Both the position numbers and the translations under genes were made by a program. A stretch of 64,000 bases of DNA, from assembly GCA_030762935.1 (NCBI GenBank), contig CM060890.1, positions 61,940,765-62,004,764 of the forward strand, written 5' to 3'. The stretch is from Hymenopus coronatus (lineage: Eukaryota; Arthropoda; Insecta; Mantodea; Hymenopodidae). The notes beneath the pieces were generated by a model that did no database searches, was not told where the DNA came from, and saw only the letters and a program-made list of their open reading frames with translations. Below are positions 1 to 52,300 of this stretch, one piece after another. Each line of letters opens with the position of its first letter. Position 1 is the first letter of the stretch.

Positions 1-815
1 CAAAAAACTTATTCTTCTATCTACTTCATGCTAATCGAGATAAACAGCAGAAATGCTTTCTTGTAAGTAATAGGGAAATAATGGAATACACTAGGTTAAA
101 CGATATTCAAAAATTTTAAAAGCTGATTGCCATGTGAACGAAATCCGTTTTTTGCATTGCCAAGAGCTGACAAATGGTCATATGTGATTATTTATAAGCG
201 TATTAACATAAATAAAATAACTGTATTGAAATTATAAAAAGGAATATCTCAAAAATGGTCTACTCAAAGAAAAAAAGGTATGCGACATAAATTGTTTCAA
301 TAAGATTTACATTTTTGTGTAGTAAGTTTTGGTCTATCTCTTACGGTTTACCAGTTATGCAAAGTCCAGCAAAATTCATCCAGATTAAAGGGGACTTCAC
401 AGGCTTTTCCCAGAAAATTCAAGATATACATTTTGTTTGTCTTTAATATTGGTATTTTAATCAAAATTGTTAGAGCCATTTTTTAGAAAATCAATATTTT
501 CGAAACTTTTTCCATATAAAGGTGAATTTGGGGTGAACGTATTTTCCTAAAAATATTCATGACGCATCCTTGGAAATAACTAAATTTAACCCTAAGTTTG
601 GTAGTTTAAGAACTTTTCGTTTTTGAGTTATCGTGACCACAGACACACGGACACATACACACATACACAGGAACCTTTTTCAAAAAAATGCTTCTCTTAG
701 ATACTGGAGACCCTAAAACGTCTATTTCAGGTGAGATTTCTGTATCGAATTTTTAGGTGGAATGCAATACCTTTTCTGTGCACTTTGTACATAATAGGTG
801 TAGAGAAAGTAAAAA
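1..815 (+). repeat. HPR copy, cut by window edge
   Basis: Plus-oriented copy of the hairpin repeat; only its first few tens of bases are lost at the window edge. Recognisable blocks in order are the TGCTAATCGAGATAAACA-like block near 30, the CTCTTACGGTTTACC block near 340, the CCCAGAAAATTCAAGATAT block near 410, the CA-rich tract near 640-670 and the terminal hairpin ending TAGAGAAAGTAAAAA at 801-815. The hairpin here is decayed (TTTGTACATAATAGG instead of the palindrome). No coding capacity. Confidence 0.85.
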
Positions 816-850
816 TGAAAAATCCGTTATATAACCAACTTACTATTTAA

Positions 851-980
851 ATTAAGCTCTTCCAAGGATGCGACACAAAGATTTTCAGGAAACCCTTCAC
901 CCCAACTAAATTTACGGAACATTTTTAGAACATTTCAATTTTCTCAAAAATGACACCACATGTTTAAGATATTAAATATT
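851..980 (-). repeat. HPR internal fragment
   Basis: Short minus-oriented piece of the hairpin repeat. It carries the reverse complement of the CATCCTTGGAAGA block (TCTTCCAAGGATGCGACA) and the following segment up to the degraded 'CTCAAAAATG' block. Neither terminus is present. The boundary beyond about 980 is uncertain, because weaker similarity may run on to about 1,060. Confidence 0.6.
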
Positions 981-1327
981 AGAAATGGTTTATTAGTAAT
1001 GAGATGTTTATCATTTTTAAGAACATCTCGTTTTTGAATACATGAATTTAATTCTGGGAATATAATTATTTTTTTATTTAATTATAAAGAGATTTGGTAT
1101 TTTTAAACATGATAAATCAAATGTATATATTTAATTTTCTATGAATGGATTCTTCATTGTCTATGCCTTTTAATGGCTGATAAACCACGAGAATAGAGAA
1201 AATCTTGCTAATACAAAAATTCAAATTTGAAAACGCACAGTTTGTCATGTCTTTTGACGGAGTAAACTTATCTGAGATATTTGTACTTTTACTATTTTCT
1301 CATTCGAAAAAACTCTTATTCATTTTT

Positions 1328-2225
1328 ACTTTTTCTACTCGTACTATGTACATAGTGTATAGAAAAGGTATTGTAATGCACCCAAAATATCGATACTGAG
1401 ATTTCACCGCAAATACATGTTTTGGGTCTCCCTAAATCCAAAAAAAAAAAAAAGCATTGCCAGAAAAAGGTCCGTGTGTGATTGCATGAGTGGCTGTGTG
1501 TGTCTGTGTGCGAGTGTGTTTGCCTGTGGACAGCATAGCTAAAATCCGAAAACACTATTAAATACTAAATTTGGTATTTAAGTTTGGTATCTTCCATGGA
1601 TGCGACAAGAAGATTTTCAAGAAAATCCCAACACCTCAACTACCCTTTACATGGAACTTTTTTTTTCTCGAAAATTTTGGATTTTCTCAAAAATGGCTAT
1701 AACTATTTTGATTAAAATATCGTATATTCAAGATATTTACCTGACATATAATATGTATATCTTGAATTTTATGGGAATAGCCCTTGAAGGCTACTTTATT
1801 CTGGAAGAATTTTATGGAATTTTGCATAACTGCTAAACCGTAAGAGATAGACAAAAACTTACCATACAGAAAATACAGAGCACATTAAAACACACAATTT
1901 ATGTTATATAATGTTTTTTCTTGGAGTTGGTCGTTTTTAGATATTCCTCGTTTTTTACTTCAGCTTTAAAAAGCATACTCTTCTCACACGGGAATTTGTC
2001 TGCTCCTGTCCATTCCTACAAAGGAACTTCAATCACATAGCAACCAGCTTTTGACTATCACTTTAGTCCATGGTTCTGCATTACTGCCTTCTACTTACAA
2101 GGAAACAAGTAATAAGACCTTTTTTTCCCAGGATTAGCATGAAGTAAATAGAAGCATTAGCGTTTTAACAAAAGTTGTTGCAGATATGTAGAGAAAGTCA
2201 TGTGAATGTATCACATCAGATTTTT
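1328..2225 (-). repeat. HPR full-length copy
   Basis: Complete minus-oriented copy of about 898 bp. The 3' hairpin is at 1,328-1,375 (ACTTTTTCTACTCGTACTATG, then ACATAGTGTATAGAAAAGG). The 5' end is at 2,189-2,225, with TAGAGAAAGT followed by CATGTGAATGTATCACATCAG. It includes the internal palindrome near 1,565-1,590 and a GT/TG-rich tract near 1,490-1,525. Small ORFs within it fall in different frames in different copies and are not genes. Confidence 0.85.
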
Positions 2226-2378: not shown

Positions 2379-3092
2379 AATCTGGTCTGTCACATGGTTT
2401 TTTCTACATATCTGTAAATGCTCTCTTTTAAGATAAAGGAAATAAGGGAATATACTAGGCTAAAAAGATAGACAAAGCTAGTTAGTTGCTGTGTGAGTAA
2501 AATTCGTTTCTTTGCATTGCCAGGAGTTAAATTCCCATAAGAAACCAAAAGGGTATATCTCAAAAATGGTCAACTCCTGAAAAAAGAATTATATATTTCA
2601 AATTGTATGTTTTAATGAGACTATTGTTTTTATCTTACGGTTTAACAGTTATGTAAAATTAAATAAAATGTATCCAGAATAAAGAGGTCTGGAGACTATT
2701 CCCAGAATATTCCAGATATACATTTTATTTGTCAGGCAAATACGTTTAATACACGGCATTTTAATCAAAATCTTTGGAGCCATTTTTGAGTAGGTCAAAG
2801 CATGTTATGGGCACTTTGGGCTGGGGAGGGGAGGATTTTCCTCGAAATCTGCGTGTGGCACACTTGAAAGATACTAAACTTAAATACCAAATTTGGTATT
2901 TTTCCGATTTTACAATTTTTAGTTATTTTGTTCACAGACACACGCACAGACATGGAGTTTTTTTTAAAAATGCTTTTTTAGATACCGGGGACCTTAGTAG
3001 TGTATTTCCGGCGAAGTCTCGGTATCAAATTTTTGGGTGGAGTGCAATATCTTCTCTATTCACGTACCATGTACTAAGTAGGAAAAATAATA
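2379..3092 (+). repeat. HPR copy with deleted 5' end
   Basis: Plus-oriented copy. The 5' terminus is contracted (TCTGGTCTGTCACATGG replaces the standard terminal stem-loop), and about 150 bp of the early region are missing. The middle and 3' parts are colinear: AATACCAAATTTGGTATTT palindrome at about 2,883-2,901, short CA/CG tract near 2,935, and a degraded terminal hairpin near 3,060-3,080 (TACCATGTACTA). Confidence 0.8.
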
Positions 3093-4737: not shown

Positions 4738-5022
4738 CAATACGGTATTTAAATCAAAATGATTAATATCAACTTTTGAGGAAAGAAAAATTGCGGAAAA
4801 TTTTCCATATAAAGGAAAGGGTAGCTTGAAAATCTTCTAGTTGCATTATTAAATTTTGTATCTAATGGAATCTTCCATTTTTGGTTTATGTTCGCATATA
4901 TTTTCGAACAGTTGCATTTATTCAGGTGACCTTAAAATATTTACTTAAGGTGAAATCTCGATATAGAATTTTTGGCTAGAACACGATACTTCCCTTACTT
5001 ATTATACGTATTAGAGAAAGTA
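4738..5022 (+). repeat. HPR 3' fragment
   Basis: The last third of the hairpin repeat, plus orientation. It starts at the block TACGGTATTTAAATCAAAATG just after the SINE-D poly(A) and ends with TATTATACGTATTAGAGAAAGT. The SINE and the truncation point coincide closely, so a rearrangement may have accompanied the insertion. Confidence 0.7.
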
Positions 5023-6722: not shown

Positions 6723-6774
6723 TGTGGTAGATGTTGATACTATACCCCTCAAATATAATCTTACAAATCTGAAA
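6246..6774. other. AT-rich segment ending in a 27-A tract
   Basis: The segment ends in A27 at 6,693-6,719. The bases before it contain AAAATGGCTTG and a broken frame, compatible with a retroposed transcript fragment. There is no identifiable source gene, and the 5' limit is not visible. Confidence 0.4.
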
Positions 6775-7886
6775 TGTTACATTAAAATAGTTTTCTCTAC
6801 CTGTTCTGTAAGAAACTGTACTTCAAAAAGCTTATTCTTTTATCTAATTTTTGGAATCCAGATAAACATGAGCTGAAATTGAAGTATTAGCTACGTATTT
6901 TCCTTCTAAAAATTACGAGACACTAGGTTAAGTGCTGGTCAAAACTTTAAGAGCTGCTTGCTATAGCTTTAAAATTCTGTTATGTTTTCTTGGGTTAGAG
7001 TAAAAAAAAAAAAAAATGAGGACTTCCCGTTGCAAATGTAAACCTACGCAGTTGCAAATGTAAACCATGATTATCTCCGAAATGGTTAACTTTACAAATA
7101 TGTATTTTACATAAATTGTGAGTTTTAACGGGTTCTGGGTTCGAACCCACAGTGGAAAATTTAAATCAATAGCTGAGGCGTCTCCGAAACGGTTAACTCT
7201 ACAATAATGTATTTTGTTTTAATTTCCAGCTTTACCGGGTCATGGGTTCGATTCTAAGCGACCGTATGTGAGATTTGTGGTGGACAAAGCGGTGCAGAAG
7301 TGCGTTTTCTTCAGGTTCTAGTACTCCATCTTCATTCTACGTGTCGTTTTATATACGGCCTCTAGTGCAATATGTTTTAAACGCGGATGTTGAACACCAT
7401 AAACAAATATTAACGGGTTCTACATGTTTAGTGTAATAAGGTTATGACTATCTTACGGTTTACCAGTAATGCAAATAATATCCAGCATGTAAAGCATTTT
7501 ATAGACAGTCCCAGAAAATTCAAGATATACATTAATTTGTCATAAATATACGTTAAAATATCGTATTTCAATTAAAATCTTAACAGCTATTTTTTAAAGA
7601 ATCAAAATATCTGAGAATCCGCCATATAAAGGATAGTTTGGACTGATGAAAACTTCCTGTAAAGCTAATCTTCATGTCACTTTCTTGGAAGATACAGAAG
7701 TTAGAAACCAAGTTTGATGCTTAAGTGACCTTAAGATTTTGAGTTATGCTGTTTTCTCTTTATTCGCTCTCGCTACGGACTTTTAGAAGAAAGAGATTGG
7801 ATTCAACAGTCTTAAAAACACGTATTTTACGGTATACTTAGGGTATCGAATTTTTACTAAGAATATACGTGGTAGAGAAAGCTAAA
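6775..7886 (+). repeat. HPR copy carrying a SINE insertion
   Basis: Diverged plus copy. It starts near the AAAAAGCTTATTCTT block and ends with CGTGGTAGAGAAAGCTAAAA at about 7,864-7,883. The element is interrupted at its 'TTTTAACG(A/G)G' block by the insertion at 7,137-7,409, whose 12-bp flanking duplication fixes both edges. The terminal hairpin and CA tract are eroded, so this is an old copy. Confidence 0.75.
7137..7409 (+). mobile_element. SINE with 12-bp target duplication inside HPR
   Basis: A 273-bp insertion bracketed by TTAACGGGTTCT at 7,125-7,136 and 7,410-7,421. It contains a tRNA-like B box (GGGTTCGATTCT near 7,230) and the core GATTTGTGGTGGACAAAGCG shared with the SINE at 23.8 kb. 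Its own tail (AAACGCGGATGTTGAACACC, then ATAAACAAATA) is unlike SINE-C. A block of about 70 bp just 5' of the insertion (from about 7,069) resembles the block at about 7,181-7,240 inside it, so some local duplication is superimposed. Confidence 0.7.
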
Positions 7887-9491: not shown

Positions 9492-10342
9492 CCTGATGTG
9501 TTCCATTCACATGACTTTCTCTAGATCTGTACAAAAAATTGTTGAAAAGCTTATGCTTCTATTTATTTCATGCTAATCGACAAAAAATTAGAAGAAATAG
9601 TCTTATTACTTGCTTCCTTGTAAGCAGAAGAGAAATAAGGGAATACCATAGATTAAACTGATAATCAAAAGCTGGTTGCTATGTGATTGAAGTTCCTTTA
9701 TTTGTATGGACGGAAGTTGATAAATTGCTTTATGAGAAAAGTTATGTTTTTAAAAGCTGAAACCAAAATCAAGGAATATATCAAAACCAATCAACTCGAC
9801 GAAAAAAAATGTATACAACATAAATTGTGTGTTTTGATGAACTCCACACTTTTTGTGTCGTAAGTTTCTGTCCATTTCTTATGGTTCAGCAGTTATGCAA
9901 AATTCTGTAAAATTCACCCAGAATAAAGTAGTCTTCAGAGGCTATTCCCAGAAAATTCAAAATATAAATTTTATTTGTCAGGCAAATATCCTTAATGTAC
10001 GATATTTTAAACAAAATCGTTACAGCCATTTTTTAGAAAATCAAAATTTTTGAAAAAAGTTACATATAAAAGGTAGTTTGGGGTGGGGGTATTTTTCTCA
10101 AAATCTTCGTGTCGCATTCCTGGAAAATACCAAGTTTAGTATTTTACCGTGTTCAAAGACACAGGGACACGCAGATACAGAGTCACACACACACGTACGG
10201 ACCTTTTTCTGAAAATCCTTTTTTTGGATACAGGGGACCCTAAAACATATATTGCCGGTGAAATCTCGGTATCGAATTTCTTGGTGGAGTGCAATACCTT
10301 CTCTATGCACTATGTACATAGCACGTGTAGAGAAAGTAAAAA
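9492..10342 (+). repeat. HPR full-length reference copy
   Basis: The best-preserved plus copy, 851 bp. The 5' end is TGATGTGTTCCATTCACATG, a stem-loop with ATGTG/CACAT arms, then ACTTTCTCTA. Internal blocks in order are TCATGCTAATCGA, GTTGCTATGTGA, TCTTATGGTTCAGCAGTTATG, GGCTATTCCCAGAAAATTCA, a GTGTCGCATTCCTGGAAA block, a short CA/CG tract, and GGTGAAATCTCGGTATCGAA. The 3' hairpin is CTTCTCTATGCACTATGT / ACATAGCACGTGTAGAGAAAG, then AAAA. The 3' motif TAGAGAAAGT is the exact inverse of the 5' ACTTTCTCTA, but the 5' motif lies about 22 bp inside the element, so the inverted repeats are asymmetric. No protein is encoded. Confidence 0.9.
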
Positions 10343-11770: not shown

Positions 11771-12522
11771 GCGATGAGTTTCATTTACAAGACTCCCTCT
11801 ATCTATCTTGCAAAAAACTATTATTACAAAAGTTCATTCTTCTCTCTCTAATCGAGATAAATATTAGTAATGAATGTTTTATTACGTAGTGTCTTCTAAA
11901 TAGATAGGAAATAAGGCAATACTACAGGCTAAATCGATATTTAAATATTTTAAAAGCTGGCAGCTAGGTGATGCAATTGAAACTACTTTCTCATTGCATT
12001 ACCTGAATGAAAAGAAATTGAATAGCACCTTCCGCTTTGGAAATTTTAAACCAATAACAAGGAATATCTCGGAAATAATTAACTGCTTAAAAACTGTATA
12101 CGACATAAATTGTAAATTCTAAGTAGATATATAGATTTTGGTCTGTTTCTTACGGTTTATCGGTTATGCAAAAATCATTTTGAATGAAGAGGGCTTCAGA
12201 GGTTATTCCCAGAAAATTCAAGATGCATATATATAAATATTTTATTTGCAATATAAATATGTTTAGTACATGGCATTTTAATCACTATCGCTAGAAGCAT
12301 GATAAAATTTAAAATTTTCAAAAATGCTCTCTGTAAAGGATAGTTTGGAGTGATCGCGTCCTTTCATTTTTTGAATTATGCTGTTTCCAGACACACACAC
12401 TGATTTATGTATTCAGGTGTTCTCAAAATATTTATTGAAATATCAGAATTAACTTTTGGGTGGCATTTCAATACCTTCTAAATCTAATGTGTACAATCTT
12501 CGCACTTGCTAGAGAAAATAAG
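11771..12522 (+). repeat. HPR copy, diverged
   Basis: Plus copy from GCGATGAGTTTCATTTACA (degraded 5' terminus) to CACTTGCTAGAGAAAATAA (degraded 3' hairpin). The order of internal blocks is preserved, including TTATTCCCAGAAAATTCAAG near 12,200 and a short CA tract near 12,390. There are many substitutions and deletions, so this is an old insertion. Confidence 0.75.
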
Positions 12523-13712: not shown

Positions 13713-14510
13713 AATATGATGTGGTCCATTCACATAATTTTCTCTGGTTATTCCATATACAAAGTATTCTTATAAAGGATTCTGTATTGTACACAATCCT
13801 AATCGAGGTAAACATTAGCAAAATTGTCTTATTACTTGTCTCCTTGTAAACAGAATACAAATAAGGGAATACGTTATAGCAAAGCGATAGTCAAATATTT
13901 AAAATCTGGTCGCTATGTGAAACAATTTAGGTACGGTTCGCTTTGCATTGTGTCATTTGAGAAAAAAGTTATGTAGTTTAAAATTGAAACCATTAACATG
14001 GAAAATACATCAACACTACAAGAAAAACCTATATGACAAATCATGTGTTATAGCCAAATCTGTATTTTTTGTAGTAAATATTTGTCTATTATGGTTTACC
14101 AATTATGCAAAATTCAGCACAATTCATCCAGAATGAGGCTATTCTCCAGAAAGTTCAAGTTACAGATTTTATTTGTCATGTAAATATATTCATAATACGG
14201 CGTTTTAATCAAAACCGTTAGCCATTTTTAAGTAAACATTTTCAACCATTTTTCAATATAAAGGGTTGTTTGTGTTGGGAAATGTTCTTAAAAGATCTTC
14301 GTTTCGCATCCTTGGAAGATACTAAACTTAAGTACCAAGTTTGGCATTTTACCGAAATTTCTTGTTCGAGTTATGGGGATACACACACGGACCCTTTTCT
14401 AAACATACTTTTATGGACAAAGGTCCCTAAAACGCGTATTTCCGATGAAACTTCAAAATGAAGTTTTGGGTGGTGTGCAATACCTTTTCTACCTACGTAC
14501 TACATAGTAA
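13713..14510 (+). repeat. HPR copy, 3' hairpin incomplete
   Basis: Plus copy starting TATGATGTGGTCCATTCACAT and ending near TACGTACTACATAGTAAATTT. The 3' hairpin has lost the final TAGAGAAAGT. Palindrome AAGTACCAAGTTTGGCATTTT is at about 14,331, with a short ACACAC tract near 14,380. Confidence 0.8.
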
Positions 14511-18868: not shown

Positions 18869-19244
18869 AACGTATCAGGATTTCAACGTAATGGCTTCGT
18901 CAAATATGGGATTGTGTTCAATTTCGTCTTTAGCAGGGTTTATGAACTCACTTAATTTCAATTCTAAAGGCAGTTCAAACACATTTTAGGACATTGCAGA
19001 ATCGCCATTACTAATATACTAACCATGTAATATTTTAACAGTGTACTTTCAAAATTATATATAGATATAACATCACCGGGCATATTTTGAACAATATTTC
19101 TCTTTCTTTCATTCATATCTATGAATGAAAAACACAAGCATTTAGCCTTGTCTATCCGAGCATAGATATTAGAAAATATATAAAATGTATAAATTGAGTA
19201 TTCTGAAAATAGCCTCATTCTGAATGACTTTGGCATATCTAGCA
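18869..19244. other. no feature recognised
   Basis: AT-rich sequence between the mariner and a truncated hairpin repeat. It may include unrecognisable 3' parts of that repeat. Confidence 0.4.
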
Positions 19245-19618
19245 AAACATAAGAGATAAAACAAAAGCTTATTACGCAAAAAGATCTACATATCATTAAA
19301 ACACACAATATATCTCATACATTTTTGCTGAATTATATTCCTCGTTATTGGCCTCTATTTAAACTTTTCTCAGTCAGAAATACATTTTTCTTTTGTTCAT
19401 GCAAAGATAATCTAATTCCAATTACATAGTAACCAGCTTTTAAAAGATATGACTATCATTTTACCTAAATATACTCCCCTTATTTTCATTCAGTTATTTG
19501 AAATCAATTAACAAGTCAATTTCTGCTAATGTTTGCCTCGCTTTAGTATGAAGCACTTAGAAAAATAATCTGCTGTAAAATAGATACAGAATGTCATGTG
19601 AATGGAATATCAGAGTTT
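19245..19618 (-). repeat. HPR 5' half
   Basis: Minus-oriented copy retaining only the 5' half: blocks ATCATTAAAACACACAATATA, CATAGTAACCAGCTTTTAA, and the terminal GTCATGTGAATGGAATATCAG at about 19,590-19,612. It is truncated near 19,245. Confidence 0.75.
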
Positions 19619-20306: not shown

Positions 20307-21015
20307 TCTGATGTGTTTCTTCACAAGACTCTCTACCTATTCTTCTAAAAGATTATACTTTTATCTACTTCATACTAATCCAGATAAATGCTAGCAGAAA
20401 TTATCTTATTATTTAGTTCCTCTAGGCTGAAGCAAAATAAGGCGATTCGCGATGCTAAAACGTTTGTTAATATTTTAAAATGAGTCGCTATGCGATGACT
20501 TTGAAACTCGGTTCTCTTTGCTAGCCAGCAGTAAAACGAAAAAAAGCAACTGTTTGAGAAAAATCTGAGTTTTTTAAAACAGAAACCAATAAAAAGGAAT
20601 ATCTTGGAAACGGTTAAAGCAAAAAAGAAATATATAGAGGATATTAACTGTGTGCTTTAAGGAAATCTACAGTTTTTAGTAAGATTTTATCTAAAAATGT
20701 CATGTGAAAAATCAGAAGACTATTCCAGAAAGCTTAGCACATATATTACATTTGTCATTCATAAATGTCTTAAACATATTGTATTTTAAACGAAATCGTT
20801 GGAGAAAATCAAAACATTTTAAAAAGTAGTTTGGTTTCTAGATTTTCTTTAACACCTTCGTGACGCATCCTTGGAAGATGCTGAACATAGCTATCAACTT
20901 CGGTATTTACACATCGTTTTTGATCTATCGTGTTTATAGAACATAGATACAGACGCAGGCACATACACACACAGTTTTCTTAAAACGCTTTCTTGGTGTC
21001 CAGGGGACTTGTTAA
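20307..21015 (+). repeat. HPR copy, 3' end lost
   Basis: Plus copy from TCTGATGTGTTTCTTCACA through the CA tract (near 20,950) to the CAGGGGACTTG block, without the 3' hairpin. A second, 3'-type copy and a SINE follow directly. Confidence 0.75.
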
Positions 21016-21330: not shown

Positions 21331-21695
21331 TATCTGCTACGGTTTACTCGTAATGCAGAAATCAGAACTTCAGAGGTTATTCCCAGAAAATTCAAGATAC
21401 ACTTACGTCTCTATTTGTCATAAAAATATTTTAAACATAGGGGAATTTTAATTAAAAGAGTTAGAGCTATTGCTGGAAAATAAAATGTTCTAAAAATGTT
21501 CAATGTAAAGGATTGTTTCGGATTAAGGGATTTCTTTTTGTGGCATCCTTGGAAGATATTGAACATACCTATATGGAATGTTTGGTATTTATTATTTTTA
21601 AATGCATTTATGGTATATCTAAACAATAACGTCTCAAAACATTTATTTTCGGGAAATATCGGTCAGTTTTTGTGGGTGGAGTACGAGGTAGAGTA
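21331..21695 (+). repeat. HPR 3' half
   Basis: Plus copy beginning at the TCTGCTACGGTTTACTCGTAA block and ending near GGGTGGAGTACGAGGTAGAG. The 3' hairpin is collapsed. Its 5' side is separated from it by the SINE-A insertion. Confidence 0.7.
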
Positions 21696-22555: not shown

Positions 22556-23340
22556 TTACCTTCTATACTTAGTACATAGAATATACAGCAATTTGCTACA
22601 AATATTGCACCGGAAATACGATTTTAGGGTCCCCTAAATACGGTAAAAGTGTTTTAAAAAAAGATCCGTATATATGTGTTTGAGTGTGAGTGTGTGAGAA
22701 CCGATAACTCAAAGGTGTAAAATCTTTTAAATATCAAATTTAGTATTTAACTATATCTTCCCAGGATGCAAAATGGAAATTTTAAAAATCCCCCCACTCC
22801 AAAATATTCTTTAGATGGAAAAATATTTGAACATTCAAAATGGCTCTAACAATTTGTTTGCAATGTCGTATATTAAAGATATTTACATAAAATATTTTGC
22901 ATATTTTGAATTCTCTCTGAATCTCTCATTATGGATGCATTTTTTTGCATAACTCGTAAACATAAGATACAAACAAAAAACTTACTACACTAAAAGTGTA
23001 TATCTCGTTAAAACACACACTTTATAGCATATATCTTTTTTCCGTGGACTCTTATCATTTCCAAGATATTCATTTATGATTTCTATTTTTGAATACTTAA
23101 ATCTATTCTCATATAGGGGTTTGCCATTACAGTTTATCTTACTCCGTCCATTCAACTTGAAGTGAATTTCAGTCACGTGGCGACAGCTCTTCAAAGGATT
23201 CGACTAATGCGTTATCGTTTTTTTTTAGTACCCTAATGTTTATATCCATTAGCATGAGGTACACAGAAAATTATGTGCAAGAAGAGTTTGTTGCAAAATA
23301 GGTTGAGAAAGTCATGTGAACGTAATACTATAGATTTTTA
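22556..23340 (-). repeat. HPR near-complete copy
   Basis: Minus copy. The 3' hairpin region starts at about 22,556 (ACCTTCTATACTTAGTACATAG), a GTGTGAGTGTGTG tract lies near 22,680-22,697, and the 5' end is GAGAAAGTCATGTGAACG at about 23,304-23,325. The internal palindrome is partly conserved (AAATATCAAATTTAGTATTT at about 22,728). Confidence 0.8.
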
Positions 23341-29185: not shown

Positions 29186-29319
29186 TGTAGTATATTAGCT
29201 TAGTAGCTCCAACATTGTGTCATCCATAAATTCATGTATATAGTAATATGTTTTATTTACTAATATTGCTTTAACTCTATTTGTGAATAAATTTAAGATT
29301 CTAACATCTGCAACAAACT
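27880..29319. other. low-copy stretch with AAT microsatellite
   Basis: 28,190-28,570 is GC-richer and holds overlapping plus frames of 72 and 97 codons, neither recognised. A possible 5'-end relic of the hairpin repeat (GTGTTAATTTCGCATGACTTCC then TCTAG) lies at 28,723-28,755. 29,101-29,186 is an (AAT)n microsatellite. Confidence 0.4.
29101..29186. repeat. (AAT)n microsatellite with CAT interruptions
   Basis: About 86 bp of AAT/ATA triplets interrupted by AATCAT units at regular spacing, ending in a pure run of about 11 triplets. Confidence 0.95.
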
Positions 29320-30785: not shown

Positions 30786-31492
30786 CAGCACAAATATGTA
30801 GATCTCGTTAAAACACGCAATTTATCTCGTATATTCCGAAAAAAATGTAAATGGCGTGTTATTTATGGACGCTCTTTAACTGCTGTGGTTCTCAGCGTCC
30901 CATTCTAAATTGGGCGTGAAAGACCACTTAATTTTGCTCACAGGCCTCTCAATCAGGGTTGAGGTTCTTTTACGTGCCGTAAATCTACGACACGGGACCA
31001 ACGGCTTTACTTCCCTTGCGAAGGAAGCCATGCTAAGGATTTTTACACCCGAAAACAATCCATCGTCCTCCGCCGGGTTTGAACCCGCGACCTTGGGTAC
31101 ATGAAGTCAGCATGGCAACCATTACACCACGGAGGACGACTCTATACATTCCGAGGTATTCCGTGTTATTTGTTTGAGTTTTAAGCAAGTAAAACTTCTC
31201 AAACGGCAAGAAATCTTATATTTCGTGTTCGCTTTGTTTACCGTTAGCAAGCAAAGTAAACAAAATTTGAATTGTTTCCCATAGCGATAGCTTTTAAAAG
31301 TTTTGACTATTGCCTTAGCCTAGTGCATTCCCTTCTTTTTAAAAGAAACAAACAATAAGATCTATTCTGTAATGGTTACCTCGATTATCATTATGCAGCT
31401 AAAAGAATAATCTTTTTTAATAGATGTTTGTTTCCGGAACATCTAGAGACATTTGAGCGTATGAAACATATCAGATTTTTTTTACTCAAGGC
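30786..31492 (-). repeat. HPR 5' part carrying SINE-A
   Basis: Minus copy starting at the GTAGATCTCGTTAAAACACGC block and ending AAACATATCAGATTTTTTTTAC. The SINE-A at 30,840-31,144 sits in its TCTCGTATATTCC block. Only the 5' half is present. Confidence 0.75.
30840..31144 (-). mobile_element. SINE-A, best copy in window
   Basis: Minus-oriented, flanked by TATATTCCGA (30,830-30,839) and TACATTCCGA (31,145-31,154). Head on the minus strand: CCTCCGTGGTGTAATGGTTG (A-box region) and GGGTTCAAACCCGG (B box). Body: TTTTCGGGTGTAAAAATCC, CGTGTCGTAGATTTACGGCA, TTAAAGAGCGTCCATAAATA. Compared with the 21.0-kb copy it keeps the full head. The short 60-64 codon frames over it are incidental. Confidence 0.9.
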
Positions 31493-36430: not shown

Positions 36431-36930
36431 GTCTAATGTGTTCCATTCACATGACCTTTTCTAGCTCTTCCACAAATAAAACTTTCCCAACTTTCCTTTT
36501 TGTCTACGTCGTGCTAATTGAGATAAACATTAGCGGAAACTTATTTGTAAGTGATAGGGAATTAAGGGAATGCAATAGGCTAAAGCGATATTCAAAGTTT
36601 GTCTCTATGTGAAACTATTGAAAGTTGGTGCTCTTTTGCATTTTCGGAAGTAAAACATAAGAGATGACACAAAAGTTGACTTTCCGCTCCAGTTTAAGTA
36701 GTTTAAAATTGAAACCAAAACAAGGAATATCTTGGAATTGACCAGCTTAAAAAATGTATAGGTGTGACAAAATGTGTGTTAATGAGATCTTTATTTTTTT
36801 ACAGTAAGTTTTTGTTTATCTCTTTCGGTTGCGAGCTACACAAAAGGCATCCAGAATGAAGAGGTCATCAGAGACTATTCCCAGGAAATTCAAGAAAGCA
36901 AATTGCGTTTATTATGAAAAAATCTTAAAA
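36431..36930 (+). repeat. HPR array 1, unit 1 (3' truncated)
   Basis: Plus copy from GTCTAATGTGTTCCATTCAC to CCCAGGAAATTCAAGAAAGC and an AT-rich tail. It lacks the 3' half and is followed without spacer by the 5' terminus of the next unit at about 36,931. Confidence 0.82.
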
Positions 36931-37763
36931 AAATCTGAGGTGTTCTGTTCACATAACTTTCGCTACAGATCCGCAAAAAGTTATTGCTAAAAATTTTATG
37001 CTTCTATTTACTTCATGCTAATCGAGAAAAAAAAAAGTAGCAGAAAAAATCTTATCACTTGCTTCCTTGAAAGTAGAAGCGAAATAACGGAGTACTATAG
37101 GTTAAAGTGATAGTCAAAAGCTCGTAGCTATATGACTGAAATTCCTTTGTTTGTATGGACAGGAGTTGACAAATTCCTGTATGAGAAAAGTATAAGATTT
37201 TTAAAGCTGAAAGCAAAAACAAGGCATATCTAAAAAACAATCAACTCCACGAAAAAAAATATATAACTTAAATTGTGTGTTTTAAAGTGCTCTACATTTC
37301 TTATCTGGTAAGATTTTGTCCATCTCTTACGGTTTAGCAGTTATGCAAAATTCCGTAAAATTCACCCAGCATAAAGTTGTCTTCAGAGGCTATTCCCAGA
37401 AAATTCAAAATATGCATTTTACTTGTCAGGTAAATATCTTTAATATACGATGTTTAATAAAAATCGTTGGAACCATTTTTTAGAAAGTAAAAACTTTCGA
37501 AAAACATTCCATGTAAAGGGTAGTTTGGGGTGATGAGATGTTTCTCTAAATCTTCGTGTCGCATCTCTGGAAGATACTAAACTTAAATACCAAGCTTGGT
37601 ATTTTACTGACTTATCGTTTTTGAGTAATCGTGTTCAAAGACACACACACGCACATTTTTTGATACAGGGGGCCCTAAAACATATATTTCCGGTGAAATT
37701 TCGGTATCGAATTTTTGGTGAAGTGCAATACCTTCTCTATACACTATGTACAAGAGAAAGTAA
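36931..37763 (+). repeat. HPR array 1, unit 2 (near full length)
   Basis: Plus copy from TCTGAGGTGTTCTGTTCACA to TACACTATGTACAAGAGAAAGT. The right arm of the 3' hairpin is shortened. The internal palindrome is conserved with one change (AAATACCAAGCTTGGTATTT, a perfect 20-bp palindrome here, about 37,585-37,604). Confidence 0.85.
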
Positions 37764-38078
37764 TACAGCACTTTAATCCAAATCGTTAGAAAAATCATTT
37801 GGAAAAAAGGTGAAAGGCTTTTGGGGGTGAAGAATTTTCTTGAAAATCTTCGTGTCCCATTCTCAAATACCAAGTTAGCTGTTTTACAGACTTCATTTTT
37901 GAGCTGAATTCCCCATAAATACACACTGAGATACACAGTTTTCTAAAATTGCTTTTCTTTGGATTTAGTGTTATAAAACATGTATTTCCGGTGAAATCTC
38001 GGTTTCCAACTTATGGGTAGAGTACTATACCTTCTCTATCTACCATACATTGTACATGCGTGCTATAGGAAGTAAAAC
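37764..38078 (+). repeat. HPR array 1, unit 3 (3' part)
   Basis: 5'-truncated plus copy starting at the TTTAATCCAAATCGTTAGAA block directly after unit 2 and ending GTACATGCGTGCTATAGGAAGT. Completes a head-to-tail array of three. Confidence 0.8.
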
Positions 38079-39082: not shown

Positions 39083-39917
39083 AAAAATCTGATGTGCCCC
39101 ATTCTCACGACTTTCTCTACTTATATATAACAAAGTATTGTTAATAAGCTTATTCCTCTTCACTTCATGCATTCCAAATAAACATTAGCAGAAACGGTTT
39201 TATCTTTTAGTTCCTCATAAGTAGAAGGAGAAAAGGGGAATACGCTAGACTAAACCGATAGTCAAATGTTTTAAAATGTGGTTGCCACTATAAAGAAATC
39301 CGTTTCTTTGCGTGGCCAGGTGTTGACAATTCCCGTATGTGAAAAGTGTAAATATTTTAAAACTGAAAAACAACGAGGTATATCAGAAAAACGGTAAGCA
39401 CTACGAGAAAAATGTATATATCATAAATTGTGTGTTTTAACGAGTTCTACATTGTTTGTTAAGTAAGTTTTTGTCTCTTTCTTACGGTTTACCCGTTATG
39501 CAAAATTCATCTAGAATAAATATGTCTTCAATTCAAGATATATTTGTCATGTAAAAATTCTTTAATATACAATGTTTTTGAGAAAATCAAAATTTTCGAA
39601 AATGTTTCCGTGTAAAGGGTATTTGGGGGCGAGAGGATTTTTTTGAAAATCTTCGCGTCACATTCTTGCAAAGATACAACTGAAATACCAAGTTTGATAT
39701 TTAACGAACTTTTAGTTTCTGGTCTATACTTCCCCCTTTCCCTCACACACTGACAGACAGACACATATATGGAAATTCTTCTAAAAATGCATTTTTTTTG
39801 GGATTCAGGGGGTCTCGAAACATACACCTCCGGTGAAATCTCAATATCAAATTTTTGGATGCAATACAATATCTCTTGTATACGCTATGTACATAGTATG
39901 TGTCGAAAAAATAAAAA
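39083..39917 (+). repeat. HPR array 2, unit 1
   Basis: Plus copy from ATCTGATGTGCCCCATTCTC to a 3' hairpin CGCTATGTACATAGTATGTG followed by TCGAAAAAATAAAAA. It is joined directly to the 5' terminus of the next unit. Confidence 0.87.
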
Positions 39918-40806
39918 TATGATATATTCCATTCACATGACTTTCTCTCCATCTCTGCAAAAAAATATTGCTAAAAAGCTGAGGCTTCTATTTACCTTAT
40001 GCTAATTGAGAATACATTAGCAATATATTCTTATTACTTGCTTCCTTGTAATTAGAAGTGAAATAAGGGAGTACGATAGGTTAAAGTGATAGTACAAAGC
40101 TGGTTGCTATGTGACTGAAAATCCTTTGTTTGTATGGACAGGAGTTGATAAATTCCTCTATGAGAAAAGTATGTTTTTCGCTGCTGAAATAAAAAACAAT
40201 GAATATATTAAAAACGTTCCACTCCACGAAAAAAGTATATATAACAAATTGTGCGTTTTAATGTGCTCTACATTTTCTGTGTGGTAAGTTTTTGTCTTTC
40301 TCTTACGGTTTAGCAGTTATCCAAAATCCGTAAAATTCATCCAGAATAAAGAACTCTTTAAAGGCTATTCCTAGAAAATTCAAGATATTTATTTTATTTG
40401 TCAAGTAAATATCTTAAATATGCGAGATTTGAATCAAAATCGCTAGAGCTATTTTTAAGAAAATCAAAATTTTCGAAATTTTTTCCATGTAAAGGGTAGT
40501 TTGGGGTGATGGAATTTTCTTGAAAATCTTCGTGTCGCATCCTTGGAAGATACCAAACTTAAATACCAAGTTTGGTTTTTAACGGTCTTTTCATTTTGAG
40601 CTATGCTGCCCCCCCCCCCCCACACACACACACACTCACACACACACACAGACTGACTGACACACACGTACATTTTTCAAAAAATGTTTTTTCTCTATTC
40701 AGGGGGTCTCAAAACATATATTTCCGGTGAAATCTTGGTATCGACTTTTTGGGTACAATACAATACCTTCTCTATTATGTACATAGTACGTATAGAGAAA
40801 TTATAA
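39918..40806 (+). repeat. HPR array 2, unit 2
   Basis: Plus copy from TATGATATATTCCATTCACA to ATGTACATAGTACGTATAGAG. The internal palindrome is at about 40,561-40,580 (AAATACCAAGTTTGGTTTTT). It is followed by a simple tract of 13 C and a long imperfect (CA)n at about 40,608-40,668, the largest CA tract in any copy. Confidence 0.88.
40608..40668. repeat. C-run plus (CA)n microsatellite inside HPR
   Basis: About 13 C then ACACACAC... with occasional CTCA and CTGA interruptions, at the position where every well-preserved HPR copy has a short CA tract. It appears to be a microsatellite grown from the element's own sequence. Confidence 0.9.
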
Positions 40807-40904
40807 ATGAAAACTTATTTTAAGGAGTTCATTGGACTTGCTCCTAACGTTACTATAGATATTTATTTTTTGCAAATAAAAGAGACCTTCAGTCTACACG
40901 GTGG

Positions 40905-41135
40905 ATAAGAGAAGGTGTATTAACCCAACCAAAAATCTGATTCCGATTTTTCACCGGAAATACATGTTTTAAGATTTCCTGTGTGTGTTCGCGAGTGTGA
41001 ACAACACACCCCATCATCGAAAATGTTAAATACCAAACTGTATTCAAGCTTTGCAATTTTCAAAGACGAAACAGGCAGATTTTCATTAACCCCTCCCAAC
41101 CCCCCTCGCCAACCCAAATTTTTCTTTACATTTTT
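40905..41135 (-). repeat. HPR internal fragment
   Basis: Minus fragment: GAAGGTGTATTAACCCAACC, TTTCACCGGAAATACATGTT, GTGTGTTCGCGAGTG, up to an AACCCAAATTTTTCTTTACA block. It lies head-to-tail (minus/minus) just before the next full copy, so a third array-like pair is possible. Confidence 0.7.
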
Positions 41136-42006
41136 TTTTTACTTTCTCTATAGGTGCTATCTACATAGTGTTTAGAGAGGGTATTGTAATGCCCCCAAAA
41201 ATTCCATACCGAGATTTCACCCGAAATACATGCTTTCAGATCTCCTGAAAGCAAAAAAATCATTTTTAGAAAAATGTCCGTGTGTGTGTATGTGTGTGTG
41301 TGTGTGAGTGGGCAGCATAGCTCAAAAACGAAAAGTCCATTAAAAACCAAACTTGGTATTTAGGTTTGGTATCTTCCAAGGATGCGACACGAAGATTTTC
41401 AAGAAAATCCAACCAGCCCAAACTACTCTTTACATAGAACATTTTTCCAAAATTTTGATTTTCTAAAAATGGCTCTAACGATTTTTATTAAAATATCGTA
41501 TATTAAAGATATTTACCTGTCAAATAAAATGTATTTTTTTAATTTTCTGGGAATAGCCTCTGAAGACTATTTTATTCTGGATGAATTTTGCATACCTACT
41601 AAACCGTAAGAGATGGACAAAATGTTAGCACACAAAAAATGTAGAGCACGTTAAAACACACAATTTATGTTATGTATATTTTCTTGTGGAGCTGACTGTT
41701 TTTGAGATATTCCTTGTTTTTGGTTTCAGCTTTGAAAAACTTATACTTTTCTCAAACAGGAATTTGCCAACTCGTGTCCATACAAACAAACGAACTTCAG
41801 TTACATAGCAACCAGCTTTTGGCTTTCACTTTAACCTATGGTACTCCCTTATTTCGCGTCTACTTACAATAAAGCAAGAAATAAGACTACTTCTGCTAAT
41901 TTTCCTAGATTTGCATGAAATAAATAAAAGAATAATCTTATTAACAATAATTTGTTACAGATGTTTAGAGAAAGTCATATGAATGGAACATCAGATATTT
42001 TTTTTA
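41136..42006 (-). repeat. HPR full-length copy
   Basis: Complete minus copy of about 870 bp: ACTTTCTCTATAGGTGCTATC at 41,141; GTGTGTGTATGTGTGTGTGT tract at about 41,281-41,307; palindrome ACCAAACTTGGTATTTAGG at about 41,346; 5' end TAGAGAAAGTCATATGAATG, then GAACATCAG at 41,967-41,995. One of the least diverged copies. Confidence 0.88.
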
Positions 42007-43159: not shown

Positions 43160-43515
43160 TTATTCACTGAAAATATTTTGGTATAGCTTATTAACACCCA
43201 TTATAATTAGAATATCTTTATGTTAACTAATATGTGTCATAAATATTCTGCTAACAGCCTCTGAAGTCCTGTGTATGCCTAAACTGGTAAACCATAAGAG
43301 TTGGAGAAAATCTTAATAGGTATACAAAATGTAGATCTCGTTTAAACACAATTTTTTACATTTTACCGTTTCATAGATATTTCTAGTTATTGATTTTAAT
43401 TTAAAAACTCTTTTAAGACTTCTCAAATGGAATTTTCTTATTTATTTTTCTTGGTGAAACAAAGAAAACGGAACGTCAATACATCACATAGCAACCAACT
43501 CTTGACAGATTTCAC
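43160..43515 (-). repeat. HPR internal fragment
   Basis: Minus fragment with GCCTCTGAAGTCCTGTGTAT, TAAACCATAAGAGTTGGAG, CACATAGCAACCAACTCTTG. Joined directly to an oppositely oriented fragment. Confidence 0.7.
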
Positions 43516-43765
43516 TAAAAAAAAGTATGACAAATTGATAGTTTTATTGTGATACACTTTTTTGTAATGAGTAGGTTTTTGTCTATCTCCTACAGACTAC
43601 GAGTTGCACAAAAGTCATCCAAAATGAAGAGGTCTTCAAAGGCTATTCCCAGAACATTCAAGATATGCATTTCATTTATCATGAAAATATTTTAAACAAA
43701 GAGCATTTTAATCAAAGTCTCTGAGAAAATCAAAATTTTAGAAAAATGTTCTATGTTAACGCTGG
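43516..43765 (+). repeat. HPR internal fragment
   Basis: Plus fragment with TTTTTGTCTATCTCCTACAG, GGCTATTCCCAGAACATTCA, ATCAAAATTTTAGAAAAATG. Together with the preceding fragment it forms an inverted, end-less junction. Confidence 0.72.
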
Positions 43766-44699: not shown

Positions 44700-44837
44700 A
44701 CCATCTGATGTGTTACATTCACATAGCTTTCACTATCTATCATGGAAGAAAACTATTCTTACAGATAATATTTTTTTACTATTTCATGCTGCTAATCAAT
44801 CTAAACATTAACGGTCTTATCATTTATTTTTATTTCC
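44700..44837 (+). repeat. HPR 5'-end fragment
   Basis: Plus fragment: CATCTGATGTGTTACATTCAC, CTTTCACTATCTATC, TGCTGCTAATCAATCTAAAC. It is abruptly joined to the 3' end of an inverted copy at about 44,838. Confidence 0.8.
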
Positions 44838-45603
44838 TCTACACGTACTATGTAGTGTATAGAGAAGGAATTGTATTGCACCCAAAACTTCAATACTGAG
44901 ATTTTACCGGAAATACATGTTTTGAGCCTCCCTATCTGTGTGTGTGTGTCTGTGGGCAGAATAGCTCAAAAACGAAAAGATCGTTAAACACCAAACTTTG
45001 TATTTAAGTTTGGTATCTTCTAAGAATACGACACGAAGATTATCACCAACTACCCTTTATATGAAATATTTTTTGAAACTTTTGATTTTCTTAAAAATGG
45101 CTTTAACGATTTTGTTTAAATTATCTTATATTCAAAATATTTACATGGCAATAAAATATATATCTTGAATTTTCTGGTAATAATCTCTGAAGACATGTTT
45201 ATTCTGGATGAATTTTGCGGAATTCTGCATAACTGGTAACCTGTAAGGTATTGAGAAATCTTACTTTACAAAAATGTAGATCTCTTCCAAACACACAGTT
45301 TCTGTTAAACACAGTTTTTTCGTGGAGTTGGCCTTTTTTTAGATATTCCTAATTATTTGTTTCAGCTTTAAAATGTTATACTTTTCTCACACGGGAATTT
45401 GTCAACTCCTGTCCTTATAAACAAAGGAACTTTAATCTCATAGCAATCAGCAATATTTGACTATCTATTTTGCCTATGGTGCTCCCTTCTACTTACAAGG
45501 AAGCAAGCAATAAGACCATTTCTGTTATTTTGCTCGATTAGCTTTAAGTAAATATAAGAACACGTTTTTTAACAATTTATAGCAGTGATGTAGAGAAAGT
45601 CAT
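44838..45603 (-). repeat. HPR near-complete copy
   Basis: Minus copy: TTTCCTCTACACGTACTATG / TAGTGTATAGAGAAGG hairpin at 44,836-44,870, GTGTGTGTGTCTGTG tract at about 44,938-44,953, 5' motif TAGAGAAAGT at 45,591-45,600. The outermost 5' stem-loop is absent, replaced by the next fragment. Confidence 0.82.
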
Positions 45604-46160
45604 CTTTTAAGTTGAAGAAATAGAAGAATACAAGAGGCTAAAGATTCAGTCGAATCTTTTAAAAGCTGTCACTATGCATATATCATTGAAATTCCAGATA
45701 TGAAACGAAATATAATGTCCGGTTTGATTAAGGTTTAAGTAGTTTAAAATTGAAACCAATAAAAAGCAATATCTCGGGAGCTCAACATAAAATATAATTG
45801 TGTTTTTAAAGGATCTAAATTTTCTGTGCAATAGTAGATTTTTTCTAACTCCGAGTTTACACAAGTCTTCCAGAAATAAGAGATCTTCAGAGGTTATTCC
45901 CAGAAAAGTCAACATATACATTTCGTTTGTAATAAAAAAGAGCTTAAATGTAATGTATTTTAGTGATAATTGTTGGTCAATTTTTATGAAATCAAAATTT
46001 TACACGTAAACTGGCTTTTCCTTTTTTTTTTTTTTTTTTTTTTGTAGGTTCAGAAGTCCTCAATGCGTGTATTTCTGTGAAATCTATGGAATTTTAAGTG
46101 GAATACGTTACCATCTTTATCTACTATGTGTATTGCACATACGTGTTAGAGAAGCTAAAT
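45604..46160 (+). repeat. HPR copy with internal poly(T)
   Basis: Plus copy lacking the 5' end: GAAGAATACAAGAGGCTAAAG, TTATTCCCAGAAAAGTCAAC, hairpin near CTACTATGTGTATTGCACAT, end TTAGAGAAGC. Between 46,021 and 46,043 a run of 23 T replaces the segment from the CATCCTTGGAAGA block through the CA tract. Confidence 0.75.
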
Positions 46161-49743: not shown

Positions 49744-50810
49744 TGTTTAACAGGACCAGACAACCTATGCTGGTAATATAGTGATTTTATGCAGATTTCT
49801 AGGTGTGCTAAGTGAAATTGCAAGCCAAATTCAAACAGAAGCAGAACAGTTGGGGTTCGTAATCAATAAAGAAAATACCAAATATGTGAAAAATTTAAGA
49901 GTAAGAAAATCTACCAACAACGTTGTCCAAATAAACGGCCACTACATCAGGAAGTACGCTTTTAAATATTTAGGAGTTTTAATTACCCAAACAATACTGC
50001 ACTAGCAGACATGAAGCATAAAATTGCAGCAGGCAACCGAGCCTGAGAGCCCTAAGCAAATCATAGAGCACAAGAAGTATAAGTAGAAAAAAAAAAAAAC
50101 TTACATTGTACAAAACAGTCATAAGACCAATTGTGCCTTATGACAGTGATACTTGGATGCTGTCGAAGAAATTATAACTGATGACATGGGAAAAAAAGAT
50201 CTCAAGAAAAATGTATTTATTTATGGTACTCCTAGGTCTTACAAGCGGATGCCTAAGGTTCAGAAGCATGTCGGGAAGCTAGCGATACCTAACATAAAAG
50301 AGTACTGGAACGAGTGGATGGTCCATAGCCAGCCTGATGAAGTGGATGCTATGAAATGCAAGCGAGATGAATGCTAGGAATGGTGATGGAGCAATTGGTG
50401 GAGTGAGTGGCAGGGAAAACTGGGGAGGGAGGCGAGGTCTAACCACTCGGCTATGGCACCGCTTTAAGAAATATCTATGGTGCTAAATATGAGAAGAATC
50501 AGATACAATACAGAGCTAAAAACTCATTATAAATCTTTAGACATTATAGCCGAAATTAAAGACCCTAAATTGGAATAGTTAGTGGCCCAAAAAGATATTG
50601 ACTTTAAAACCTGAAGGTACATGCAATATTAACAGACAAAAATTAAGATGGCTGGATGGAGTAGAGAAAGGTCTAAGAACTTTAGAAGTGAGAAGATTGA
50701 GACAGAAGTCTTTGGTTCAACAGGAATGGACTAAAATCCTAAGGGAGGCCAAAGACTATACATGTAAACACCAAAGCAGAAGTAGTTCATTTTGATTTGG
50801 CGATTCCACA
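49744..50810 (+). pseudogene. LINE reverse transcriptase C-terminal relic
   Basis: Degraded non-LTR retrotransposon ORF2. The catalytic box reads YAGNIVILCRF at 49,766, where YADD is expected, so both aspartates are lost. It is followed by EAEQLGFVINKENTKYV, YAFKYLGVLIT, a KLTLYKTVIRPIV...DTWMLS segment after a frameshift and a short A run, IRYNTELKTHYKSLDIIAEI-like residues, and a C-terminus KLRWLDGVEKGLRTLEVRR plus EWTKILREAKDY. A SINE-C fragment interrupts it at about 50,232-50,467. The order matches arthropod jockey/CR1-like elements; the clade is not settled. Confidence 0.85.
50232..50467 (-). mobile_element. SINE-C copy inside the LINE relic
   Basis: On the minus strand it starts AAGCGGTGCCATAGCCGAGT, then GGTTAGACC, the same tRNA-like 5' end as the SINE at 23.8 kb. 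It continues with CACCAATTGCTCCATCACC and CATTTCATAGCATCCACTTC from the SINE-C family part. The middle of the head and core is deleted. Flanks (AAGAAAAATGTATTTATTTATGG-like left, AAGAAATATCTATGG right) resemble a decayed target duplication of the LINE's 'K-IYG' region. Confidence 0.72.
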
Positions 50811-51239
50811 CAGTATTAGGTATATATATTTCAGATGATTTAACCTACTATCTCGTACATCAACTGCACTATTTGCATGCATGATAAAAATAAATATAAA
50901 ACACTTCATGCACATTTATGAGGAATAAAATATTAAATAATGAACGTGCGGGGCAGCAAACGTAAAGCTATTCAGTGAACATAAATATTAAAAAAAAAAA
51001 AAAAAAATTATTCCGGTCAATGTATGAATCCATTACTTTTCCATTATCCCAGCAATCAATTGTTTTTTTAATTCAATAAATTGTATATCTCAAATTTAAG
51101 CTCAGTGGAATCGACATTTCTAACAGGAAATATGAAACGTATTTTATTGGCCATTTTTTTCATTATGTGGCGTTACGTTAAAAAAAAACCTAAGCTTCTT
51201 CTCCTTATTCTTACGAATGATCAACAATTCCTTGGGTAA
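50811..51239. other. no feature recognised
   Basis: AT-rich, with an A-run at about 50,991-51,006. Confidence 0.5.
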
Positions 51240-51512
51240 CTGTACCAAGACATGGCTCCGGGGCAATGTATGTGGCCTATATTCGGAAGGTCCGCGATTT
51301 AAACCACGCAAGGGTCGGCCTACCTGGCGGGGTTCTTCCTGCCATTCTTAGTCCTCATTATTGGCAAAAACTGAAGCACCTGTAAACTTAGACTCGAACA
51401 TTTTCTTCCCTAAATCCCTTTCCCAAATATTATTTCATTGTATGCGTCATCAATAACCATTGTCTGTTTTGCCGTGTATGGTAAGAATGAGCGTTAAACA
51501 TTACTAAAAAAA
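51240..51512 (+). mobile_element. tRNA-like SINE (SINE-E2), probable
   Basis: GACATGGCTCCGGGGCAATG at the start and a B-box-like GGTCCGCGATTTAAACC near 51,290 suggest a tRNA-derived head. A GC-rich body (GGTCGGCCTACCTGGCGGGG) and an AT-rich tail ending GAGCGTTAAACATTACTAAA follow. It directly abuts the 5' end of an HPR copy. Single copy in the window, so class is inferred. Confidence 0.45.
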
Positions 51513-52300
51513 AATCTTATGTGTTCCATTCACATGACTTACTCTAGCTGTTCCAAAAACAACTTTTCTTACAAAGATTATTCTTTTACCTACATCTTGC
51601 TGATCAAGAAAAACATTTCTAGAACTGTTCTTACTATTTGCTTCTTTGTAAGATGAAGGGAAATATGGGAATGTACAGGCTAAAGCGATACTCAGATCTT
51701 TTAAAAGTCGGTCGCTAATTGAAGTAATTTAAATTTGGTATTCTTTGCTTTCTAGAAATAAATAGAGTCGAAAAGAGAAATGTCACCCGTTTGGAAGTTT
51801 AAGCACCTCAAAACTGAAACCACTAACTTGGAATATCTCGAACATTTTGTACTCTACAAACAATGTTTAATGACTTAAATTGTTTGTTTTAATGAGATTT
51901 TTTTGGTATAGTAAGTTTTCGTCTATCATTTACGGTTTACCAGTTATTCAGAAATTGAACAATTTTTTCTCAATGAAAAGGCTTTCACAGGTTAATGCCA
52001 GAAAATTCCAGATATGCATTCCGTTTGACATGAAAATATCTTAAACATATGACATTTTATTAAAATAGTAGGAAATTTTTTTCAAAAAATGTTCCATGTA
52101 AAAGTGTAGTTGGATATAGGGGGATCTTCTTTAAAATGTTCATGTCGCATCCTTAGAAGAAACTGAATTGAAGTACCGAGTTTGGTATTTAACCTTTAGT
52201 TTTTTAGCTATGCTGTTTGCATTTTTTTTTGTTTTTTTTTGTTTTTAGGGGGTCTCAAAATACTTCCGGTGAAATCTCAATATCAAATTTTTGTGTGCAA
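51513..52300 (+). repeat. HPR copy, last in the window
   Basis: Plus copy from ATCTTATGTGTTCCATTCAC, then ACTTACTCTA, to TCAATATCAAATTTTTGTGTG. The 3' hairpin is missing and the CA tract is replaced by T-rich sequence near 52,222-52,246. Confidence 0.82.

Follow-up and report, generated by a model that had tools for sequence, protein, structure and literature searches.

Gene-less repeats, very probably derived from Helentrons, make up about a quarter of a 64-kb window of the Hymenopus coronatus genome

Copies of a single short repeat make up about one quarter of the window, that is, the whole stretch of 64,000 bases of H. coronatus DNA that was analysed. Helentrons are the endonuclease-bearing branch within the Helitron group, and we consider it very probable that the repeats are HINEs, gene-less Helentron derivatives propagated by rolling circle. 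The kind of element is already known; what is remarkable is the abundance of one single family.

A consensus was built from 22 copies of the repeat, whose unit length is about 0.86 kb. At E≤1e-4 it gave 35 alignments spanning 17,216 of the 64,000 bases (26.9%), and 36 alignments (17,258 bp) when the window was the sole database; the reversed window and five Markov shuffles gave none. These numbers bear out the roughly 30 copies in both orientations that a sequence-only reading of the same DNA had described. That the repeat is non-coding was also borne out, since the consensus has no stop-to-stop frame longer than 105 codons, a length that base shuffles also reach (300 shuffles, mean 69, maximum 148). 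K2P divergence among the window copies ranged from 5 to 45%, and five copies kept both recognisable termini. The claim that every intact copy carries the same end motifs was overstated, although the family itself is real: the 20-mer given for one end was found exactly once and seven times with up to 3 mismatches (0.01 expected), and ACTATGTACATAGT exactly once and four times with up to 1 mismatch (0.03 expected). The copies are listed below in the Helentron orientation, opposite to that of the earlier reading; unless another basis is named, they were placed by consensus alignment, to which termini or nesting analysis were added where indicated.

2..810, minus strand, HINE copy without the 3' ~55 bp (75% to consensus)
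811..1012, plus, HINE fragment
1071..1325, plus, HINE fragment
1328..2220, plus, complete HINE, both termini, T5 at either side (with termini)
2419..3080, minus, partial HINE
4740..5021, minus, HINE fragment
6768..7136, minus, HINE fragment including 3' end
7410..7855, minus, HINE fragment
9493..10337, minus, complete HINE, both termini, sole exact 3' 20-mer in the window (with termini)
11773..12352, minus, partial HINE
12404..12517, minus, HINE 5'-end fragment
13717..14509, minus, nearly complete HINE
19164..19614, plus, HINE 3' half
20307..21008, minus, partial HINE
21353..21591, minus, HINE fragment
22590..23328, plus, partial HINE
25964..26032, minus, HINE fragment
26369..26677, minus, HINE fragment
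27022..27874, plus, complete HINE (with termini)
29307..29688, minus, HINE fragment
31301..31475, plus, HINE 3'-end fragment
36432..36929, minus, older HINE, 3' part, interrupted by copy 36934..37752 (with nesting analysis)
36934..37752, minus, nearly complete HINE nested inside older copy (with nesting analysis)
37763..38058, minus, older HINE, 5' part, host of nested 36934..37752 (with nesting analysis)
39088..39910, minus, complete, diverged HINE (72%)
39920..40800, minus, complete HINE (with termini)
40895..41103, plus, HINE fragment
41141..41995, plus, complete HINE (with termini)
43282..43506, plus, HINE fragment
43513..43759, minus, HINE fragment
44704..44825, minus, older HINE, 3'-end fragment, interrupted by copy 44834..45603 (with nesting analysis)
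44834..45603, plus, HINE nested in older copy, without 3' palindrome (with nesting analysis)
45604..46001, minus, older HINE, middle part, host of nested 44834..45603 (with nesting analysis)
46033..46153, minus, HINE 5'-end fragment
51515..52302, minus, nearly complete, diverged HINE (67%)

On this strand the consensus begins with the motif ACTTTCTCTA and an adjoining inverted repeat, contains an internal (TG)n stretch and ends with TAGAGAAAGT and the palindrome CATGTGAATGGAACACAT. The inverse of the ACTTTCTCTA motif sits 22 nt from the 3' end and is followed by this small palindrome. The orientation first proposed was reversed: with the strand corrected, what had been called the "3' hairpin" turns into the inverted repeat of the 5' end, and the "5' stem-loop" into the 3' palindrome. 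The same reading was right that the two 10-bp motifs invert each other exactly and lie at different distances from the ends, here 0 nt and 22 nt; such unequally placed inverted repeats were seen in the consensus and in 43 copies that retain both termini. When five end pieces taken from window copies were folded by themselves, the z values were −0.36 to −1.66, not clearly better than shuffles; the hairpins therefore rest on conserved sequence and not on the fold energy of single copies.

The repeat fits the HINE/DINE-1 anatomy described in PMC4067079. Like the HINE-Mo elements of Metaseiulus occidentalis, some families of which are deletion derivatives of Helentrons, it is non-coding, with unequal subterminal inverted repeats, a 3' palindrome and T-rich targets with a variable number of T's (PMC4067079). 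It differs from HINE-Mo, as portrayed there, in its 10-bp 5' motif immediately after the T-run, in the distance of the 3' motif from the end (22 nt against ~38–60) and of the palindrome from the T-run (4 nt against 8–35), in the T's apparently added at filled sites and in its very large copy number (PMC4067079). By anatomy it also resembles Drosophila DINE-1/INE-1, with a 5' subTIR and partly nested inverted repeat, an internal microsatellite, a 3' subTIR followed by a stem-loop, and a preference for TT targets, the subTIR being 13 bp in DINE-1/INE-1 and 10 bp here (PMC4067079).

A derivative of a canonical Helitron (TC...CTRR, A^T target) would account for the TC that begins the earlier reading's strand after the A's, and canonical Reps are present in the genome. 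However, the canonical 3' CTRR is absent, as had been claimed (that strand ends with TAGAGAAAGT ahead of A's), the setting is a T-run instead of A^T, and four of the six Helentron-type loci whose flanks were fetched bear the same leader as the repeat. The canonical set of 5' TC, 3' CTRR and A^T target was not found, both ends adjoining A/T-runs, and because of the ends and the target we rank this origin low, as highly unlikely.

Among the 43 copies with both termini, the left T-run was exactly 5 in 28, and 39 had a T-run of at least 4 no more than 6 nt away from the 3' palindrome; the 3' junction fillers varied (GAA, GAG, GATA, GATTA and others). One T-run was present in empty sites and at a head-to-tail junction, and two in filled sites, which had 2–7 extra T's (A's on the opposite strand) compared with matching empty sites. 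These extra T's could belong to the element or stem from a short duplication. A consistent multi-base target duplication, which the sequence-only reading had named as evidence against a Helentron origin, is thus not cleanly set aside. Thomas et al. (PMC4067079) describe Helentrons and HINEs as inserting without target modification and mention some reported by earlier studies. The gain of T's differs from the published mite HINEs and counts against the HINE reading, as do the window's two cases of nesting, since at neither insertion point does the consensus show a clear run of T5; for the latter reason our confidence was slightly lowered.

The T-runs bear on two further explanations. A cut-and-paste (DDE) MITE-like family with subterminal inverted repeats and a 5-bp TTTTT target duplication would explain the T-runs at both sides of most copies, the single run in matching empty sites and the existence of a 10-bp inverted repeat; but the inverted motifs sit at unequal depths (0 nt and 22 nt), the 3' junction is variable and, in the search for Helitron-type Rep, the 5' part of the repeat proved to be borne by a Rep gene. 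We regard this explanation as very unlikely; the T-runs are why it is retained at all, as a weak rival. Even less probable is a Crypton-like element, with a tyrosine recombinase, whose circle would recombine at a common TTTTT core and leave T5 on both sides; the single run in empty sites and at a head-to-tail junction against two in filled sites is what it predicts, yet the 3' junction is imprecise and the repeat is linked to a Rep gene.

That link favours the HINE reading. The gene search, which covered Helitron-type Rep only, gave about 36 Helentron-type loci (our grouping), mostly carrying stops; C21:256.97 Mb and C21:292.95 Mb are two of them. The residue diagnostic of Helentron Reps is the Ser of RGSPHxH, according to PMC4067079. 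Read by eye, it was Ser in all 7 of the 11 Helentron-like pieces that reach it, and Leu (10) or Met (1) in the 11 of 16 canonical Helitron pieces that do; the 11 pieces from one search, 9 of which reach the residue, were all of canonical type by eye. A Helentron-type piece matched PF14214 at 1.7e-13. At 4 of the 6 fetched loci the 5' part of the repeat stands immediately ahead of the Helentron reading frame, and the 5' terminus itself was seen at three, A, B and D. The part common to gene and repeat comprises the terminus and a leader of ~390–600 bp, with 66–71% identity over the aligned leader and 81% in the best stretch. The link occurs in two leader architectures, and the repeat 3' end is absent between leader and gene. 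Of the remaining two, L081 holds an almost entire HINE (positions 42–860) that stands apart from the gene, and L083 shows neither a joined leader nor a separate HINE. The four leader-bearing loci are not independent, since A and B have a common flank of ~270–280 bp ahead of the terminus and C and D have one leader-gene junction in common, and in a genome so rich in the repeat some HINE is likely to lie close to a gene by chance. Anatomy, T-rich targets and Rep genes with a matching leader together support the HINE reading first put forward from the sequence.

In such a scheme, an autonomous Helentron Rep/helicase/endonuclease protein would act on both repeat ends, recognising ACTTTCTCTA with its inverted repeat at the 5' end and TAGAGAAAGT with the palindrome CATGTGAATGGAACACAT at the 3' end. 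It would nick near T-runs, and rolling-circle copying of one strand would be followed by joining into another T-rich site; we infer these strand-transfer steps from the anatomy. The Helentrons found here may have driven this very family, though their leaders are only 66–71% similar to it, and the last ~260 bp of the repeat would correspond to the Helentron 3' end. In loci fetched from the genome, a search for elements with the same ends and a different interior gave nothing firm: the consensus was missing beside 5 out of 84 3' ends and beside 23 of the 83 matches to the 5' pattern, most of these 23 being, by eye, the inverted repeat read backwards. The 3' 20-mer had no exact match in viral_contigs and genome_contigs, and five end sequences turned up no papers in open-licence PMC text, which is literature and not a repeat catalogue.

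Genome-wide (3.13 Gb), we counted 376,109 near matches to the repeat 5' end (control 1) and 599,724 matches to the 3' palindrome 20-mer with up to 3 mismatches (control 197); the density of both ends in the window is below the genome averages. Should the window be typical of the genome, which the counts of the two ends suggest, the share held by one gene-less rolling-circle family is far above the 6–6.6% that PMC4067079 gives for the Helitrons of Myotis and Heliconius. The family would then be a strong model for HINEs outgrowing their helpers, for satellites arising from HINE ends and for events at the target T-run. We propose tentatively, at somewhat short of even chances, that roughly a quarter to a third of the 3.1-Gb genome came from this one family over a long span, with only the ~36 mostly decayed Helentron loci remaining, and that one side of its insertions has a fixed TTTTT, which might be a genuine target duplication of 5 nt.

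Tandem forms were also seen. A head-to-tail pair was present once among the 43 copies with both termini, and at L049 a minisatellite of 57 bp × 53 has grown out of the repeat 3' end. In the Pacific oyster, satellite-like repeats derived from Helentrons are reported in PMC7492417; like them, the L049 minisatellite is a tandem array on a non-autonomous Helentron, and unlike them, this 57-bp array is made from the 3' terminus itself.

A consensus of 862 bp was built from 22 copies of the repeat, taken from the window and from 20 loci picked around exact copies of the 20-mer at its 3' palindrome. Its alignments covered 35 places in the window (17,216 bp, 26.9%), or 36 places and 17,258 bp when the window alone was the database; it matched nothing in the reversed window or in any of five Markov shuffles. 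Both termini were kept in five window copies. The sequence-only reading of many copies of one family agrees with these 35 places, but the 20-mer it proposed was exact in one place only, with seven places at up to three mismatches.

The element reads on the strand opposite to the one first proposed, as follows: N-TTTTT, ACTTTCTCTA, an inverted repeat around ACTATGTACATAGT, an interior with a (TG)n stretch, then TAGAGAAAGT, CATGTGAATGGAACACAT and CAGA, followed by TTTTT-N. It is on this strand that the HINE anatomy is found. According to Thomas et al. 2014 (PMC4067079), HINE/DINE-1 elements carry subterminal inverted repeats, the 5' of which adjoins a further inverted repeat; they also have internal microsatellites, a palindrome at the 3' end and T-rich targets. 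The repeat fits this description closely, though not exactly: its 3' motif lies 22 nt from the end, compared with about 38-60 nt in the mite HINE families. Five end pieces taken from window copies, each folded singly, did not clearly outdo shuffles. We infer that the repeat spreads by the known rolling-circle mechanism.

Target sites were read in 43 copies that keep both ends, five of them in the window and 38 in loci next to the window or chosen around an exact 20-mer. The left T-run was exactly five in 28 copies; in 39 a T-run of at least four started no more than 6 nt from the palindrome, in 26 directly after CATCAGA. Joined flanks were also inspected against insert-free copies; several flanks had diverged and others were without a clear match. 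In the five readable cases the empty site showed a single run of 5-9 T's, to which the filled site had 2-7 more, mostly four or five. One of these five belongs to a head-to-tail pair and is possibly a tandem copy. The left T5 may be either element DNA or target duplication. Within the window, copy 36934-37752 splits an older copy (36432-38058), and copy 44834-45603 splits another (44704-46001 or beyond). Read in the consensus, both nested sites are T-rich and neither is a clear T5 run, which argues against a strict T5 requirement; the split copies are old, and their target sites may have changed.

A PF14214 profile search gave 112 matches in the genome and none in any of 14 control genomes. 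We translated 27 matched pieces and typed them by eye: 16 were of the canonical Helitron type (diagnostic residue reached in 11; Leu in 10, Met in one) and 11 of the Helentron type (reached in seven, all Ser). The piece at locus L064 matched PF14214 at 1.7e-13, a neighbouring piece matched DUF6570 weakly, under the cut-off, and a third piece gave no match. Searching the genome with the L064 piece gave 55 matches, which we grouped into about 36 loci; of the 18 matches that span 118 or more of the piece's 150 residues, 16 have stops. From these loci and stops, the Helentron helper genes look decayed and rare; the search counts are lower bounds. The Helentrons share the genome with Rep genes of the canonical Helitron type (RGLPHAH), for example at L052-L063; by eye these fall into two or more sequence types, and most have stops. 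At L079 (minus strand, about 1660-2480) the Helentron frame carries a charged internal repeat upstream of the Rep domain, with units of about 60-65% DNA likeness.

Upstream sequence was compared for six Helentron-type loci, and the 5' part of the repeat was joined to the gene in four of them.

Repeat sequence upstream of Helentron-type Rep genes (C17 and C21 are contigs; other numbers are repeat positions)
Locus A, C17:12.476 Mb: terminus TTTTAT-ACTTTCTCTATC.. by pattern match, repeat-like leader, then Helentron frame
Locus B, C21:256.976 Mb: terminus TTTTAT-ACTTTCTCTATC.. by pattern match, repeat-like leader, then Helentron frame
Locus C, C21:262.41 Mb: 47-368 and 341-387, with an insertion between them
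Locus D, C21:292.944 Mb: 1-388 (81%), running into pre-gene sequence
Locus L081: nearly whole repeat (42-860), separate from the gene

Upstream of the sixth locus, L083, neither a repeat leader nor a whole repeat was seen. Across about 570 aligned columns, reaching about position 596, the leaders of A and B were about 66% identical to the repeat, and that of D 71% over 542 columns, more than its 1-388 stretch (one shuffled control each: B 46%, D 42%); the 44% obtained for C comes from a misplaced slice. The repeat part of C abuts the same pre-gene sequence as D. Since A and B have about 270-280 bp before the terminus in common, and C and D the same leader-gene junction, these are two architectures and not four independent cases. 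Between leader and gene, A-D have no repeat 3' end, which disfavours the chance insertion of a whole repeat at that place. Together with the anatomy and the T-rich sites, the Rep-gene leader indicates that the HINE assignment was right in kind.

In the assembly (3,126,739,099 bases, 384 contigs), where the window is C11:61940765-62004764, the exact 20-mer occurred 45,836 + 46,088 times (control 0). With up to three mismatches it occurred 300,713 + 299,011 times (control 104 + 93), a count partly made of minisatellites, and the 26-mer of the 5' end 189,203 + 186,906 times (control 0 + 1). One such minisatellite, L049:1054-4134 (C1:1261053-1264133), has a 57-bp unit repeated 53 times with 93% matches and derives from the 3' end of a single repeat copy. 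Per 64 kb, the genome holds 7.7 of the 5' 26-mer (window 6) and on average 12.3 of the 3' 20-mer (window 7); the window is therefore not enriched. Extrapolated from this one window, a share of about 26.9%, or about 0.8 Gb, is a fair first guess. K2P distances of window copies to the consensus ranged from 5 to 45%, which indicates long-lasting copying. The distinctive point is this genome share of a single HINE family. For comparison, PMC4067079 cites 6-6.6% for Helitrons in two genomes, and the figure given for grasshoppers is 7-20% of the repeatome (PMC7486953). Five end sequences of the repeat had no match in the open PMC literature text, which is not a repeat catalogue.

Elsewhere in the window, 25550-25890 (minus strand) is, by eye, a tRNA-like stretch that we take to be probably SINE-derived; it had no Rfam match at gathering score. 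An isolated tRNA covariance-model match (32.2 bits) lies at 4586-4657. Among the fetched loci, L024:1115-1768 (minus strand) holds a 218-aa open frame, putatively Tc1/mariner transposase-like by eye, and L011, L014 and L018 hold tandem-array-like open frames, the longest of 679 codons, in which short units recur. C21 is a single contig of 545.7 Mb, the other contigs shown being 60-188 Mb.
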